Virus record (IMG/VR): IMGVR_UViG_3300036804_000351
Span: 1 to 44,957 of that record
DNA length: 44,957 bases
Source: a virus
Reading direction: 5' to 3' (one strand)
The notes beneath the pieces were generated by a model. It was not told where the DNA came from, made no database searches, and saw nothing but the letters and a program-made list of their open reading frames with translations. Position numbers and translations under genes: made by a program. Below, in pieces: positions 2,242 through 44,957 of this stretch (position 1 is the first letter of the stretch; each line of letters starts with the position of its first letter).

Positions 2242-2312
2242 GGCTGCATTCCTAAATAAGTGATTGCCATAACCACGCCGAGGACCAGATAGAAAGCGAT
2301 ATCAGTTTTCAT
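2238..2312 (-). CDS. 24-residue membrane peptide
   Basis: A very short frame with a strong ribosome site (GGGGGAT, 5-6 bases before the ATG at 2312). It encodes 24 residues beginning MKTDIAFYLVLG; the middle is uninterruptedly hydrophobic and would form one membrane helix. Its TGA overlaps the ATG of the Cys-rich protein gene (ATGA). The strong ribosome site, coherent membrane-helix composition and coupled overlap all argue that it is translated. It may be a small membrane effector, or only a leader that delivers ribosomes to the next gene. Confidence 0.6.
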   Translation of the reverse strand: MKTDIAFYLVLGVVMAITYLGMQP

Positions 2313-2392
2313 GAAATCCCCCTTTTGCTGATTTCGGCGTGAGCGAATCCCTTGCCAGTGATGGCAATTAATTAAAATCAGATGGTTTTAAA

Positions 2393-3313
2393 TTATCTTT
2401 GGGCTTCGCCGCCCAGAGCGGAAATAAGGTTCGATATCAGCGCTGAATATTCACTGGTGACCAGAATGAAATCAGCACCAAAGCGCGCGCCGAAATCTTC
2501 CCGGTCGATATCATCATTCTGATCGGCCAGTGTGTCGCTCGGTTTCAGCTTGTTCAGCGTGAAAGAGTCGTTGATCTGGAAGCTGACGCGTTCCTGCCAA
2601 TTCATCGACAACTGAGTAACCAGCTTGCCGTTTTCGATATGGCTGCTGATCTCGTCGCTGACCAATTCCTGTTTCTTACAACGGATAGTGCCGCCTTCCT
2701 CCAGAATAGCTTTCAGCTCGGCTTCATCCTGCAAAGCAAATCCCGCTGGCGGTTCGCCGGTACGCACCCAATCGGTCAGGCTCAATTCAATAGGCGTTTC
2801 CATCGTCAGCGGAACAACTGGCAGTGATCCGAGACTTTTACGCAGCAATGCCAGCAGGTCTTCAGCCTTTTTGGTACTCACCGCGGCGACCATGATCAGA
2901 CGGTTATCGAGGTCAATCCAAATAAAGGTCTGGCTGATGCGGCTGAACGCGCGCGGCATCAGGGTATGCAGCACTTCATCTTTCAGTGAATCCTTTTCGG
3001 TTTTCTTCAGCTTGCGATGCTGCTCGTTTTGAAGCTGATCAATCTTGTCCTGCAGCTCTTGTTTTATGACCGGAGCCGGAAGGATTTTCTCTTCACGTTT
3101 CGCGCATAGCAGCAGCTGATGGCCGGCGGTATGGATCAGGTTTTCGGTACCGAATTTACCCATCGGAGAAACCCAGCCTGTTTTCGCCATATCCTGGCTT
3201 CCACATGGGGAGAAAATGAAGGCGCTCAACTGGCGTTGCATTTCCTCGGCATCGAGCTTGATATCACGGCTCATGCGGTAAATCTGCAAACTCTTAAACC
3301 AAAGTTCTTTCAC
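2393..3313 (-). CDS. rdgC: Recombination-associated protein RdgC, phage copy
   Basis: A 306-residue homologue of RdgC, a ring-forming double-stranded DNA binding protein that modulates RecA and is associated with the nucleoid. Family blocks are present along the full length: [10 protein letters not shown] near the start, [55 protein letters not shown], and a C-terminal GGEAQR identical to E. coli. I place the start at the GTG at 3313 because AGGAG lies 9 bases upstream and this gives the family's usual length of about 303-306; a longer GTG-started frame at 3337 is less likely. The start is one base after the stop of a 44-codon frame. Several enterobacterial prophages carry rdgC in the early operon, presumably to control recombination of replicating phage DNA (inference). 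Confidence 0.93.
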
Positions 3314-3314
3314 G

Positions 3315-3449
3315 TTAATCACTCCTGTTATGCCCACTGCACTGGGGGAAACTCACACACATAGAAAAGGGCCACCGGTGACGCACTGGGTGTACTGGTG
3401 GGGCCAGCGAACCCTTGTCTATGTCTGCGAAAAAATTGGCGGTGGTCAT
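3315..3449 (-). CDS. Small frame directly ahead of rdgC
   Basis: A 44-residue frame (starts [13 protein letters not shown], ends SGHNRSD) whose TAA is one base before the rdgC GTG, with the rdgC ribosome site inside its last codons. The composition, with PP and Cys in a Phe/Trp-rich middle, is like the short host-inhibition (Icd/Ash-like) frames seen in P1- and P4-type early regions, but I cannot assign it. No good ribosome site precedes this ATG, and the frame stays open upstream to 3518, so the start is uncertain. Confidence 0.4.
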
Positions 3450-3544
3450 GATCAGAACACTATCTTCGCTCCCCCTGATGTTGGATGGTTGAAGAGTCAT
3501 GCCACCGCCGAAAGACAACTACACACAGCAATTATCGAGGTTCC

Positions 3545-3700
3545 ACGTCGATCTGATTGGGCGGCGGGAGTCGAACCCGCAATCGGGTAGGGAACCCGAC
3601 CATCACCTAATGCTTGCCACAACGGAGAGAGCACTATCGGGACTGTCGGACTGTGAAAGCTTCGCCAGCTTGCTCACCGTCAGTACTCTTTCCGTTGTGT
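3545..3700 (-). other. Structured non-coding module 1 in pL leader
   Basis: I find no convincing gene here. Two adjacent hairpins, each with a 5-bp stem and a 7-base loop, occupy 3564-3580 (GCGGG/CCCGC) and 3583-3599 (TCGGG/CCCGA). They are followed by a 17-bp inverted repeat with two mismatches at 3619-3635 and 3682-3698, whose arms begin ACAACGG and end CCGTTGT. The stretch lies in the leftward early transcript upstream of the 3449 frame and rdgC. It resembles the layout of phage antisense-RNA immunity or antitermination RNA regions (c4 RNA of P1, CI RNA of P4, put of HK022); that is an analogy only. The strand is inferred from pL. Confidence 0.45.
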
Positions 3701-3959
3701 GCCAGGCTCCCACTGGCTCCCATCTGTTTTTTAAGTCACTCAGATATCGTCTGGACTTGCGCGTCTTTCCCAGCTGTCACTGCAACGAGAGTGCAGGCAG
3801 GTCACTGACCAGATAACGCGCTGGATCAACTCGCGGTTGCGGTGGCCGGAGCTGATCCCGGCACGGATGGTATTTGCTGGCATACTTTCAGCCACGTCCC
3901 AAGTCTCCTATTTCCATCCATCTGGCTATTACAGGTGCGCATCAGCCTGCGCATTCACG

Positions 3960-4043
3960 ACAACGGGAAGAACACTGGGACTGTGGTCATACTGGGTTTA
4001 TGGTAAGTGAGTTCATCAACCCCCCCAGTGTTCTTCCCGTTGT
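3960..4043 (-). repeat. 20-bp perfect inverted repeat, structured module 2
   Basis: A perfect 20-bp inverted repeat: arm 3960-3979 (ACAACGGGAAGAACACTGGG) and arm 4024-4043, separated by 44 bases. Its outer bases match those of module 1 (ACAACGG ... CCGTTGTGTGCC), and GGGACTGT follows the left arm in both, so the modules look like diverged copies about 340 bases apart. It is too long and has no U-tract, so it is not a simple terminator. It could fold in RNA from either strand. The 3701-3959 stretch between the modules holds no gene I can support. Confidence 0.6.
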
Positions 4044-4117
4044 GTGCCTGGTCACTTCTCCACCTCAGGCGGCGGTGGTATCTTGGGAGTTCTCACGCAA
4101 CCAAGAAATTGAAACCT

Positions 4118-4441
4118 ATGGAAAATCCTTTATCAAAATTGGCGTTAGACGCTTGGTACAAAGTGTTAATCGTCATTGGTACTTTTGTTGTTCTTCTCAA
4201 TGGTGCTGGACTTCTTCCCAATTACCCGACTAAACAGACTTTTGTGATTGGTCTCGGGTGCATAATTTATGGTGTCGGAGAGTGGATTAACCATCCACTT
4301 AACGAAACGGTGCAGCCAAGAACTGCCACTACTCCCACACTTAAATGGACTGACCACTCCTGGAACCCGCGACCGTTCGGTTTGCTTTTTGATGGCATCG
4401 GCATATGTCTTCTTGTTTGGGGCTTCTACAAACTGATTTAA
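4118..4441 (+). CDS. Conserved small inner-membrane protein in the immunity region
   Basis: A 107-residue protein with three hydrophobic segments: ~residues 12-31 (VLIVIGTFVVLLNGAGLLP), ~41-52 (FVIGLGCIIYG) and the C-terminus (FGLLFDGIGICLLVWGFYKL). I start it at the ATG at 4118 (MENPLSKLA); the longer upstream frame reads through the inverted-repeat region. Similar proteins occur in enterobacterial genomes and prophages without a known role. It is the only rightward gene left of cI, antisense to the pL transcript and to the 4166-4534 frame, so it could be expressed in the lysogen as a conversion or exclusion protein (inference). The ribosome site is weak. Confidence 0.65.
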   Translation: MENPLSKLALDAWYKVLIVIGTFVVLLNGAGLLPNYPTKQTFVIGLGCIIYGVGEWINHPLNETVQPRTATTPTLKWTDHSWNPRPFGLLFDGIGICLLVWGFYKLI

Positions 4442-4534
4442 ATCGAACCCGCAGCAAGGACATTTGTCGTACAACGGTTTTACTGACCACCCAGCAGGGA
4501 ATACGAGAAGCTTCGGTTCATCAACTTTATCCAT
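4166..4534 (-). CDS. Possible first gene of the pL operon, zinc-knuckle N-terminus
   Basis: A 122-codon frame whose ATG follows GAGG by 7 bases, just downstream of the pL promoter. The N-terminal third (FPAGWSVKPLYDKCPCCGFDL) looks like genuine protein with a CPCC motif. The remainder runs antisense to the 4118-4441 membrane gene and is less protein-like (Ser/Lys-rich end). Either the two genes overlap tail to tail over 276 bases, or the true protein is shorter or decayed. It sits where lambda has N, but shows no arginine-rich N-like motif. Confidence 0.4.
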   Translation of the reverse strand: MDKVDEPKLLVFPAGWSVKPLYDKCPCCGFDLNQFVEAPNKKTYADAIKKQTERSRVPGVVSPFKCGSSGSSWLHRFVKWMVNPLSDTINYAPETNHKSLFSRVIGKKSSTIEKNNKSTNDD

Positions 4535-4586
4535 CCTGATACCTCATTAAGCTGCTGCGTTCTTGCCGTTGCGTGTGTTCCTTATG

Positions 4587-4619
4587 GATACATTATGTAT
4601 CTGCGGGGTACATTGTCAA
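4587..4619 (-). promoter_or_regulatory. pL promoter with operators
   Basis: Read leftward this segment has -35 TTGACA (4619-4614), a 16-base spacer, and -10 CATAAT (4597-4592). It overlaps a perfect 7-1-7 palindrome GATACATTATGTATC (4587-4601) and an operator copy GTATCTGCGGGGTAC (4597-4611) of the same type found between cI and cro. It lies just past the end of cI, exactly where lambda places pL/OL, and points into the leftward early operon. Confidence 0.8.
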
Positions 4620-4621
4620 GG

Positions 4622-4650
4622 CGAAAAAAAACCTGCCGAAGCAGGTTTCG
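4622..4650 (-). terminator. cI terminator
   Basis: Leftward intrinsic terminator: stem AACCTGC/GCAGGTT (4630-4636 and 4641-4647) with a 4-base loop, followed on the minus strand by a run of eight T. It lies 15 bases past the cI stop codon and separates cI transcription from pL. Confidence 0.85.
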
Positions 4651-4664
4651 TGAAAATAATTTAA

Positions 4665-5333
4665 TTAGGCTCTATAACGTCTTGGTTTTCCTGAGAAAAT
4701 AACAGTGCCAATTATTGAACAATTACCATCAATTTTGATGTACTGATCTGGCCAGCCCTTATTTAAGGCTTTCAGGTACTTTGTTCCCGCATCCTCAACG
4801 AGTCTTTTAAACGTTGTCTCCCCGGAATCAAGCAGCAACGCGACCACATCATCACCGTGGACAGGTGCAACCTCGGGATCAACGAAAATCATATCGCCTG
4901 GACGATACTCATCGATCATTGAATCGCCAATGACTCGAAGAATGTAGGTCATAGGCCCGCAAGGGACCGGACAGGGATATGTTTCGGATAAACTCAAATC
5001 TACCTCGGAATAACCAATTTCAGTCCAAGCTCCAGCCTGAACCCATGAAATCACCGGCACCATTTGAATGGTGAGTTCGGTGTCAGTGACATCCGGAGCT
5101 GAAGTTATATTCGTGGCCTGATGTTCCTTGTCCAACCAGCCATCTGGTAAATCAAAGCACTTTTCAATGTGACGTGCCAAATCATCCCCGATTTTTTTCG
5201 TAGGATTCTTCCCGATCACTCGGCTGACTTGGGTTGGTTCTCTTTCGATTAGGCCCGCAAAGGAAGAATTTCCCCCGGCACTATCTCTGAGCTTCCTGGC
5301 GTTATCCCGCCGGATTTCATCGTTTGTCTTCAT
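4665..5333 (-). CDS. cI: CI-type prophage repressor, S24 LexA-like
   Basis: A 222-residue lysogeny repressor. The N-terminal ~65 residues form the DNA-binding domain (GLIEREPTQVSRVIG helix-turn-helix region). The C-terminal S24 peptidase domain has the self-cleavage pair Ala100-Gly101 (VQAGAW), the catalytic Ser138 in GDSM and Lys176 in TFKRL. All three elements of the RecA-stimulated autocleavage machinery are present, so the prophage should be SOS inducible. It is divergent from cro with operators between, and ends in its own terminator before pL. The ATG at 5333 is used; the ribosome site is weak, as expected for a leader-poor repressor transcript. Confidence 0.95.
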   Translation of the reverse strand: MKTNDEIRRDNARKLRDSAGGNSSFAGLIEREPTQVSRVIGKNPTKKIGDDLARHIEKCFDLPDGWLDKEHQATNITSAPDVTDTELTIQMVPVISWVQAGAWTEIGYSEVDLSLSETYPCPVPCGPMTYILRVIGDSMIDEYRPGDMIFVDPEVAPVHGDDVVALLLDSGETTFKRLVEDAGTKYLKALNKGWPDQYIKIDGNCSIIGTVIFSGKPRRYRA

Positions 5334-5351
5334 ACACTCATTAAACTTCGT

Positions 5352-5416
5352 GTACCTATTGGGTACAAGTATCTTGCGGGTTCATTTAAATAGTGCATAA
5401 TGTATCTCGGAGGTAC
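5352..5416 (+). promoter_or_regulatory. OR operators and pR promoter
   Basis: Three 15-bp operator-like sites of the form GTAYCT-N3-RGGTAC: 5352-5366 (GTACCTATTGGGTAC), 5369-5383 (GTATCTTGCGGGTTC, one deviation) and 5402-5416 (GTATCTCGGAGGTAC). A rightward promoter fits -35 TTGCGG at 5374-5379, a 16-base spacer and -10 CATAAT at 5396-5401. The third operator contains the cro ribosome site GGAGG, so a bound repressor would block both transcription start and translation initiation. The pRM promoter for cI must overlap the left part, but I cannot place it reliably. Confidence 0.8.
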
Positions 5417-5418
5417 AT

Positions 5419-5637
5419 ATGATTAAAAACTATTGGGATGCTTTAACGAAACCAGAGCAAAACGCCCTGGCTAAAAAAGTCGGTAGCAGCAGTGGTTATC
5501 TCAGACTCGTTTTCAATGGCTACAAAAAAGCAGGTTTTTCACTTGCACAACGTCTTGAAGAAGAAACCGCTGGCGCTGTTACCAAGAGTCAATTACGGCC
5601 TGATATCTACGGGAATACTACTTCCCAAACGGCATGA
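5419..5637 (+). CDS. cro: Cro-like repressor
   Basis: A 72-residue, basic N-terminal helix-turn-helix protein (NALAKKVGSSSGYLRLVFNG is the likely HTH; 'AQRLEEETAGAVTKSQLRPDIYG' is the typical YdaS/Cro-like C-terminal motif). First gene of the rightward early operon, divergent from cI. The ribosome site GGAGG lies within an operator, 8 bases before the ATG. Expected to compete with CI at the shared operators and favour lytic growth. Confidence 0.88.
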   Translation: MIKNYWDALTKPEQNALAKKVGSSSGYLRLVFNGYKKAGFSLAQRLEEETAGAVTKSQLRPDIYGNTTSQTA

Positions 5638-5662
5638 GCATAACTACCGAAGGAAATGAGAA

Positions 5663-6169
5663 ATGGTAGACCTGAAATCAGTAGTTAAAGCGATGTGCAA
5701 AGCCTATCCCGGCGGTCGATCAGCAATGGCTGGCGCTCTGGGAATGACTGAAACGCAGTTCAACAACAACCTGTACGAAAAAAACGGCTGCCGGTTCTTC
5801 GAAATCGTTGAATTGGAGGCGATGGAAGACATCAGCGGTACCAACCATCTGGCGGATTATTTTGCTCAGCGCCGTGGGGGGTTTTTCGTTGAAATCCCCA
5901 ATCGTGACGAACTGGACCACGTTGATCTGTTTATCAAAGGGGTAAAGGTAGCTGCAAAGAGCGGGAAGGTTGATCAGCAAATCAATGCGTCAATTGCAGA
6001 TGATGGCGTTATTGACCAGGACGAAAAGGCCGAAATTATGGCTCTGCATCGTAAGCATTTAGCTGCCCGCGATGAGTATGTGAAGTCAGTGGTGGCTTTG
6101 CATGAAAAGGTTGACGCCTCAGGAGTGCAGTCCCGAGGCGTCGGTGCATTAAAAACGTGTGTGGAGTAA
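5663..6169 (+). CDS. CII/YmfL-type phage regulatory protein
   Basis: A 168-residue protein of the phage regulatory CII family (CP76/YmfL type): N-terminal HTH-like region with GGRSAMAGALGMTETQFNNN, then a helical C-terminus (DEKAEIMALHRKHLAARDEYV). It occupies the cII position after cro, 25 bases downstream, with a GGAAATGAG ribosome region. Family members are thought to steer establishment of lysogeny or early transcription. The assignment is by motif and position; regulatory targets are not visible. Confidence 0.8.
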   Translation: MVDLKSVVKAMCKAYPGGRSAMAGALGMTETQFNNNLYEKNGCRFFEIVELEAMEDISGTNHLADYFAQRRGGFFVEIPNRDELDHVDLFIKGVKVAAKSGKVDQQINASIADDGVIDQDEKAEIMALHRKHLAARDEYVKSVVALHEKVDASGVQSRGVGALKTCVE

Positions 6170-6176
6170 TTAACGC

Positions 6177-6536
6177 ATGAACAGTCTACTCATAAAAGCT
6201 GGCGTTCCGCAAATCCGCTGTGTTGCGACAGGCGGGGTCGCTGGCTCTCTTTCGTATGAAGTGATGATAGGTAACCGCTGGATCCCCTGCAACTACCAGT
6301 TCGCGGCGTGGTGGGTAGGTTATGTCTGTGAGCACAGCCGGAAGGTGAGCGCATGTCTGAAGAAATCCAGAAGCTGGACCGGAACTACAAGGATTGGCGG
6401 GGCGTTGTGGTACACGTCGTGGGCTTCGACAGAGCAGGGGATCGCGTCATCTTCATGCGCACCGGTTACCCGCATGAGTGTGCCCAGCCTACTGAACAAT
6501 TCCGGCGAAAGTTTAAGAGGGTCCTATGAGCGTTAA
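6177..6536 (+). CDS. Small conserved phage protein, C-terminus overprinted by DUF4222 gene
   Basis: A 119-codon frame. The first ~60 residues (IRCVATGGVAGSLSYEVMIG, AAWWVGYVCEHSRKV) look like a real conserved phage protein. From about residue 59 the frame runs through the DUF4222 gene in another frame and turns Ser/Thr/Trp-rich, as random translation does. A GGAG ribosome site lies 10 bases before the ATG. The functional protein probably ended near residue 60 in relatives; here no stop occurs until 6536. Function unknown. Confidence 0.6.
   Translation: MNSLLIKAGVPQIRCVATGGVAGSLSYEVMIGNRWIPCNYQFAAWWVGYVCEHSRKVSACLKKSRSWTGTTRIGGALWYTSWASTEQGIASSSCAPVTRMSVPSLLNNSGESLRGSYER
6353..6529 (+). CDS. 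DUF4222 family protein
   Basis: A 58-residue protein beginning MSEEIQKLDRNYKDWRGVVV with the internal block RVIFMRTGYPHEC. These blocks match the DUF4222 family of small proteins in the early operons of enterobacterial lambdoid phages; no function is known. It overlaps the preceding frame by 177 bases in a different frame, and its TGA overlaps the next gene's ATG (ATGA). Ribosome site GAAGGTGAG lies just upstream. Confidence 0.8.
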   Translation: MSEEIQKLDRNYKDWRGVVVHVVGFDRAGDRVIFMRTGYPHECAQPTEQFRRKFKRVL

Positions 6537-43985: not shown

Positions 43986-44957
43986 TTATGGTTTGCGGGC
44001 AATCAGCAAGGCACGGCGTGGTGCCGGATAGCCTTCGATGGTTTTGCCCGGATCGTTCGGGTCGAGGAATTCCGCCAGTGATTCGCTGGTCATCCAGTCG
44101 GTGCGGCGTTGCTCTTCCAGCGTGGTGACGCTGACGTCCGCAATACGCACATCAACAAACCCACATTTGATCAGCCAGTTTTTCAGTGCGGCGGCGGAAG
44201 GGATGAAGTAAATATTGCCCATCTGCGCGTAACGATCACCCGGCACCAGCACCTGTTCACTGTCGCCTTCGATGACTAAGGTTTCCAGCACCAGTTCGCC
44301 TTCGCTGACCAGCTGATTTTTCAGCTGCAGAAGATGATCCAGGGGCGAACGACGATGATACAGCACGCCCATGGAGAAAACGGTATCAAACGCATTCAGT
44401 TCAGGCAGTTGCTCGATGCCCAGCGGCAGTAAATGCGCACGCTGATCGCCGCCCAGTAATTTACGTACGGCCTCGAACTGACACAGGAAAAGCTGCATCG
44501 GGTCGATACCGACCGCCAGATGTGCGCCTGCGCCAATCATGCGCCACATATGGTAACCGCTGCCGCAGCCGACATCTAAAATGGTGCGCCCCGCCAGTGA
44601 GGAAATGTGCGGAAGAACTCGATCCCATTTCCAGTCTGAACGCCATTCGGTATTGATTTCCACGTCGTACAGCGAAAACGGCCCTTTGCGCCACGGCATC
44701 ATGTTGCGCAGCAGATTTTCAATCCCTTCGCGCTGACCGGCTGGCAAAGGCACTTCCATATTCGCGCTGACGCTGTGCAGCAAATCCAGACGCTCCGGCT
44801 GCAACAACGGCAGGCGATCGACGGAGTTAAACCACAATTTGAACTTGCCGTGCAGGGATTCTTTCTGCCACGCAGTCAGCTGAGAAGGCAGGGTATTGAG
44901 CCAGGGACTTAACGGCCCTTTGGCGATAACGCGATAAAAATCACCAAAATCAATCAT
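43986..44957 (-). CDS. cmoB: tRNA U34 carboxymethyltransferase CmoB
   Basis: A 323-residue enzyme that converts 5-hydroxyuridine at tRNA position 34 to cmo5U using carboxy-S-adenosylmethionine made by CmoA. SAM-binding motif [19 protein letters not shown] at ~125-143, plus [16 protein letters not shown] and the C-terminal [15 protein letters not shown], all near identical to E. coli CmoB (323 residues). Complete; the start codon is the window's last three bases. Core host gene, so it marks the right flank of the prophage. Confidence 0.97.

Follow-up and report, generated by a model that had tools for sequence, protein, structure and literature searches.

Arrays of structured RNA modules with conserved frames and exchangeable inserts in a phage pL leader and its relatives

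The leader region between the predicted pL promoter and rdgC of the IMG/VR virus record IMGVR_UViG_3300036804_000351 (44,957 nucleotides, analysed at full length and called the window below) harbours several structured RNA modules that form an array on its minus strand, at positions 4107-3429. Read in the direction of pL transcription, the array consists of module D (4107-4044), a first copy of module A (A1, 4043-3960), module B (3966-3834), module C (3758-3701), a second copy of module A (A2, 3699-3618), a tRNA-Gly(CCC)-like element (3622-3550) and a terminator-like hairpin (3510-3429). By comparing the window with related loci, designated below by L numbers, we show that such arrays have predicted secondary structures with kissing loops, a modular order, swapping of the inserts, a wide spread among phages and co-orientation with tRNA genes. 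Based on these features, we lean towards the view that the arrays are leader-borne small-RNA modules, in which the fixed frame would provide stability or processing and the variable arm would define the target.

The location of these elements between pL and rdgC, proposed in the initial annotation, was confirmed. A consensus scan identified a pL-type promoter (TTGACA-16-CATAAT, 11/12 matches) on the minus strand at 4619-4592, immediately left of the cI gene (4665-5333), whose product a protein family scan identified as an S24-type CI repressor. The next gene downstream of the array is rdgC (2393-3337, minus strand; Pfam RdgC, E 4.6e-115). The region had also been described as lacking good genes, and this part was incorrect. 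A 107-aa membrane-protein ORF is found on the plus strand at 4118-4441, opposite the pL transcript, and it is 52% identical to a protein of mEp390, with other tblastn matches in Bcep176 and HannyBb. This ORF has no Pfam or PHROG family; its placement is reminiscent of that of sieB in P22 and lambda. A 122-aa ORF on the minus strand (4166-4534) was rejected as a gene, having no phage relative and no Pfam or PHROG family.

C4 and P4 CI RNAs are leader-encoded, and both the leader location and the tRNA-like hairpins of the array are reminiscent of them. The RNA-based immunity initially put forward for this region would correspond to an antisense RNA of that type, which we regard as highly improbable. 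The C4 model of Rfam has no match in positions 2300-6300, even at an E value of 10, and the modules are common to phages with different repressors and to virulent phages. In addition, the presence of a CI repressor protein makes RNA immunity unneeded, albeit being compatible with it.

Module A is present twice in the array. The arms of A1 (3960-3979 and 4024-4043; 20 nt, 100% complementary) form a perfect 20-bp stem around a 44-nt insert, and those of A2 (3618-3640 and 3677-3699; 23 nt, 83% complementary) enclose a different insert. The two inverted-repeat modules reported at the outset, about 340 bp apart, are both real and represent copies of this one module, with the direct repeat CAGTACTCTTTCCGTTGTGTGCC and its 85% identical copy spaced by 345 bp. 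The perfect 20-bp inverted repeat, also correctly reported, is the longest in positions 3000-4800, compared with a maximum of 11 bp in 40 dinucleotide shuffles. The 3' arm consensus of module A has four matches with at most three mismatches in the window, for 0.06 expected. The initial two-module description thus stands for both hairpins but omits a third structured module, B, that lies between them.

The consensus of module A is ACAACAGGUAAGAGCAYUG - insert - CAGUGCUCUUUCCGUUGU, and its stem comprises 18 base pairs. In a set of 31 A frames collected without reference to pairing, 14 of these pairs show compensatory changes. The frames contain 48 double-change cells versus 7.9 in shuffles, a number reached by none of 500 shuffles. 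Furthermore, one pair of the stem is U-G in 25 of the 31 frames and would be an A-C mismatch on the opposite strand. Hence the molecule that folds is likely to be the minus-strand (pL-strand) RNA. In 84 of 187 cases, versus 3.7 in shuffles, an exact closing partner of the last 7 nt of module A lies downstream, so that a closed domain often follows module A on its 3' side. Module A shares the sequence UUGU with the closing stem of that downstream domain, and the two pairings are mutually exclusive.

Module B of the window matches our covariance model R1 with 35.2 bits (E 1.2e-9), a score to be read knowing that the window frame is itself included among the 35 rows from which the model was built. 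The predicted fold of this module is a three-way junction with an 8-pair closing stem and two hairpins whose loops, GCUGAU and AUCAGC, would kiss in the manner of a tRNA elbow. Its consensus is (N)5GUGAAUGCGCAGGCUGAUGCGC - insert - GCCGGAGAUCAGCACCGGCCAC(N)5. P2, the first hairpin, is GCGC-AGGCTGAT-GCGC in the window copy and is followed by a variable arm of 74 nt and by the hairpin P4, GCCGG-GATCAGCT-CCGGC, with GCTGAT facing ATCAGC. Compensatory changes were found in 15 of the 23 pairs among the 35 B frames, with 72 double-change cells versus 18.3 in shuffles; none of 500 shuffles reached that number, and slid controls gave 27 at most. The closing stem ends sharply after eight pairs. In phage DS8, both sides of the kissing interaction are altered together (GGUCGAU with UUCGAC). 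The closing stem of module B in the window has one C-C mismatch and A2 has some mismatches as well, hence the window copy of the array may be decaying.

The covariance check suggested in the initial annotation thus gave positive results for both modules, and the proposal that they are RNA modules is strongly supported by the compensatory changes, the frequent U-G pair and the same orientation of the neighbouring tRNA genes. The inverted repeats might alternatively function at the DNA level, as recombination joints or mobile miniature elements with an incidental RNA fold. Their presence across unrelated phages and the mosaic exchange at the frame borders described below would fit such elements. 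Nevertheless, the compensatory changes proceed via many pair types, and together with the U-G pair of the A frames, the co-variation of the kissing loops and the same-strand tRNA neighbours, they point to a single-stranded product. We consider a DNA-level element very unlikely.

Module D consists of a CTTGG..CCAAG hairpin and a CCACC-loop-GGTGG hairpin, and by inspection its GCCTG loop can pair with a downstream CAGGC. Module C (GTCCAGACGATATCTGAGTGACTTAAAAAACAGATGGGAGCC..) is conserved in many phages. In the tRNA-Gly(CCC)-like element, the closing stem overlaps the 3' arm of A2. The twin hairpins with 7-base loops that had been noticed early on belong to this element. They have 5-bp stems, GCGGG-AGTCGAA-CCCGC at 3564-3580 and TCGGG-TAGGGAA-CCCGA at 3583-3599, and on the minus strand they resemble a T arm with the loop TTCGACT and an anticodon arm whose loop, TTCCCTA, contains the anticodon CCC, respectively. 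The element was rejected as a true tRNA, since ARAGORN was negative and the Rfam tRNA-Sec model scored 19.6 bits, below gathering; the corresponding element of L148 closes better. Ahead of rdgC, the array ends with a long terminator-like hairpin, GGCGGTGG..CCACCGCC followed by TTTTTT. Similar, DicF-like hairpins were found downstream of 44 of 248 arrays (18%), compared with 2.4% of random windows. In many phages (L004, L005, L011), A or B is preceded by another conserved module, E (GGCACATGNNGCGTTAGCGG..CCGGAATGTGCAAGC).

The inserts of both modules are highly diverse. We distinguished 85 families of A inserts and 83 families of B inserts, between which the frames are 88% and 91% identical, respectively, values raised in part by the search itself, as many loci were retrieved with fixed frame patterns. 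Syntenic relatives of the window array show mosaic exchange at the frame borders. Their tRNA-like element and terminator are 89-100% identical to those of the window, and module C is 95-100% identical. For L012, L031, L018 and L148, the similarity of the B payload to that of the window does not exceed the similarity of its own shuffles; the L020 payload is 99% identical to that of the window. In L013 the B payload is wholly lost, and in L022 the A2 stem is entirely different in sequence with its complementarity kept. In L013 and L020, the segment between modules C and A2 also contains an inserted short frame with coding capacity for a protein (MFKFELGQKVKVTISGETGFVKG...). Antisense matches between the inserts and their own loci are no longer than for shuffled inserts, and self-antisense action was therefore discarded. 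The folding excess of the inserts is weak (mean z of -0.5 to -0.7).

BLAST searches with the leader matched short pieces of it in very different phages, in mosaic order and mostly in unannotated stretches. Pattern scans of IMG/VR with the fixed frame patterns added more than 200 loci, across which modules recur in fixed combinations. In lambda, module A occupies 44788-44866, with a perfect 5' arm at 44788-44806, in the late leader directly after tR' and before S. The lambda PreS sRNA, encoded between ea10 and ral, was discarded as a candidate for this module as it lies elsewhere. Three lambda-sized, 48.5-kb 'plasmids' of Stenotrophomonas, Paenibacillus and Salmonella (NZ_CP104294.1, NZ_CP068597.1 and NZ_CP082339.1, respectively) match the lambda module; they probably represent lambda DNA contamination. 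HK620 has module B between pR'/qut and S, and mEp460 has it in the pL leader, with the same placement as in the window. Modules were also identified in the N4-like phage IME11, in DS8, in the P1-like RCS47, in the Burkholderia phage CSP3 and in Ackermannviridae phages. In the Pseudomonas phage D3, a module is located inside a tRNA cluster. In Klebsiella phage KP6 (L290, 580-3694), a CDS and tRNA-Met flank an RNA-rich stretch of about 3 kb that has no annotated genes and contains module A, module B, STnc100 and several more long hairpins. Lastly, the exact 22-mer of module B is present in 73 bacterial contigs, for about 0.03 expected by our own calculation, which range from Enterobacterales to beta-proteobacteria and to Verrucomicrobiota and Phycisphaerales bins. 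Two of these occurrences are CRISPR spacers, in Halomonas (L314) and Magnetaquicoccus (L359), indicating that bacteria have sampled the B frame.

These locations bear on whether the structures affect only their own transcript, by antitermination, processing, insulation or timing of rdgC or of the lysis genes, with passive inserts. The presence of modules in early leaders (the window and mEp460) as well as late ones (lambda and HK620), the terminator-like hairpin after the array and the orientation of the next ORF, which is co-directional with the modules in 159 of 205 cases, are consistent with such a cis-acting leader. However, modules are also present in virulent phages and in tRNA clusters without leaders of this kind, the lambda module is downstream of the terminator that it would need to overcome, and the swapping of inserts within a strictly conserved frame would be unexpected if they were passive. 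We thus consider a purely cis-acting role improbable. Antitermination of the put type, the second function initially proposed, is disfavoured because the first reported hairpin is about 550 nt from pL, and because modules occur after tR' in lambda, in a Q-dependent operon, and in virulent phages.

Several features link the modules with tRNAs. Of 254 arrays, 24 (9.4%) have a tRNA gene no more than 500 bp away, compared with 2.4% of random positions, and in all 24 cases it lies on the strand of the array. Module B resembles a tRNA by its two-hairpin elbow and its acceptor-like closing stem; it differs by the eight pairs of that stem, by Watson-Crick kissing loops and by the absence of an anticodon arm and of an encoded CCA. 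In two relatives, the domain directly after module A matches the tRNA model, at 605-712 of L216 (108 nt, 46.4 bits) and at 1116-1241 of L263 (126 nt, 39.9 bits), unlike the tRNA-like element of the window. Both domains score as tRNAs with an enlarged middle, in the anticodon region, which suggests that the scaffold of the modules may derive from tRNA. The frames might thus be tRNA mimics or decoys that bind host factors handling tRNAs, such as processing enzymes, anticodon nucleases or other tRNA-targeting defences, with arms that follow the host factor. The elbow-like kissing hairpins, T-arm-like elements in several inserts, the tRNA-derived forms of L216 and L263 and the same-strand tRNA neighbours are in line with this possibility. 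Nevertheless, module B is devoid of a standard T loop and many inserts do not resemble tRNAs, and we regard decoys as unlikely.

We also compared the modules with known RNAs. No family of Rfam 15 matches the modules, and no match in the window reaches the gathering threshold. The three module strings that we searched for are absent from the open-access papers covered by our search, in which the work on tRNA-like, hypervariable or kissing-loop phage RNAs that is relevant here is limited to GOLLD and ROOL and to Pas and STnc100. DicF is a known RNA of prophage leaders, with GGCGG..CCGCC-Un as its terminal hairpin. The DicF model (RF00039) has no match in the window, and it gave sub-threshold matches near two arrays (L148, 5797-5846, and L263, 1506-1554; 33 bits versus a gathering threshold of 48).

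Among prophage RNAs, the Pas sRNAs and STnc100 are expressed, and RIL-seq suggested base-pairing targets for Pas. By inspection of the Rfam consensus, STnc100 (RF02076), of which PasD is a relative, resembles module B in its 8-pair closing stem ending in GGUG/CACC, AAU linker, 5' hairpin, variable middle and 3' CCGG..CCGG hairpin, but its hairpin and loop sequences differ. The STnc100 model has no match at gathering in the window and matches only the separate element that shares the Ackermannviridae RNA region of L290 with a B module. A comparison of R1 with STnc100 gave a non-significant 5 bits (E 1.3), and the two were not merged into one family; we retain an architectural likeness. The literature that we examined describes no payload swapping for STnc100.

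Module D was compared with the sas RNA of P22, a product of the pL leader observed by RNA-seq, whose sequence is given in table 2 of PMC13397905, and resembles its 3' part. The sas core, ACCACCGAGCCUGA..GUGG..AAAAGACAGGCAC, resembles module D of the window (ACCACC..GCCTGA.GTGG..GAC.AGGCAC) and of its relatives L007 and L010, a likeness established by inspection and without a score. The sas RNA is antisense to sieB, whereas the ORF on the opposite strand in the window is not known to code for SieB. In terms of life style, the nearest analogues of the arrays are GOLLD and ROOL, large ornate phage RNAs without assigned function that are often found by tRNA islands (PMC12286853). The Rfam models of GOLLD and ROOL did not match the modules, which instead form chains of small exchangeable units in proteobacterial phages.

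For the small-RNA modules that we favour, the following scheme can be proposed. The array would be transcribed from pL early in lytic growth, or from pR' in lambda-like phages, and the tRNA-like frames would confer stability and allow processing by RNase P, RNase E or RNase III. Once released, the RNAs might act in trans, with their specificity set by the variable arm, as with DicF and sas. In favour of this scheme, RNA is produced from comparable leader positions, as shown by sas of P22. Candidate targets include host mRNAs, host RNA-binding proteins and defence factors. A bolder version, which we advance tentatively as a minority view, is that the arrays are display RNAs used phage-wide. A fixed tRNA-like scaffold would present exchangeable arms selected by an arms race with host factors, for instance defences that target RNA or tRNA, and the arms would be swapped like anti-CRISPR genes. 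A role as tRNA decoys or in anti-defence would be the most interesting reading of the arrays.

This structured RNA design with exchangeable inserts appears to be uncatalogued in Rfam and in the open-access papers that we searched. Its conservation extends from contigs of Pseudomonas, Burkholderia and Verrucomicrobiota to phages of Enterobacterales. The modules would account for part of the unannotated RNA-rich stretches found by phage tRNA genes, such as the 3 kb of KP6. Since module A is present in the late leader of lambda, the best-studied phage offers an immediate system in which to examine its function.
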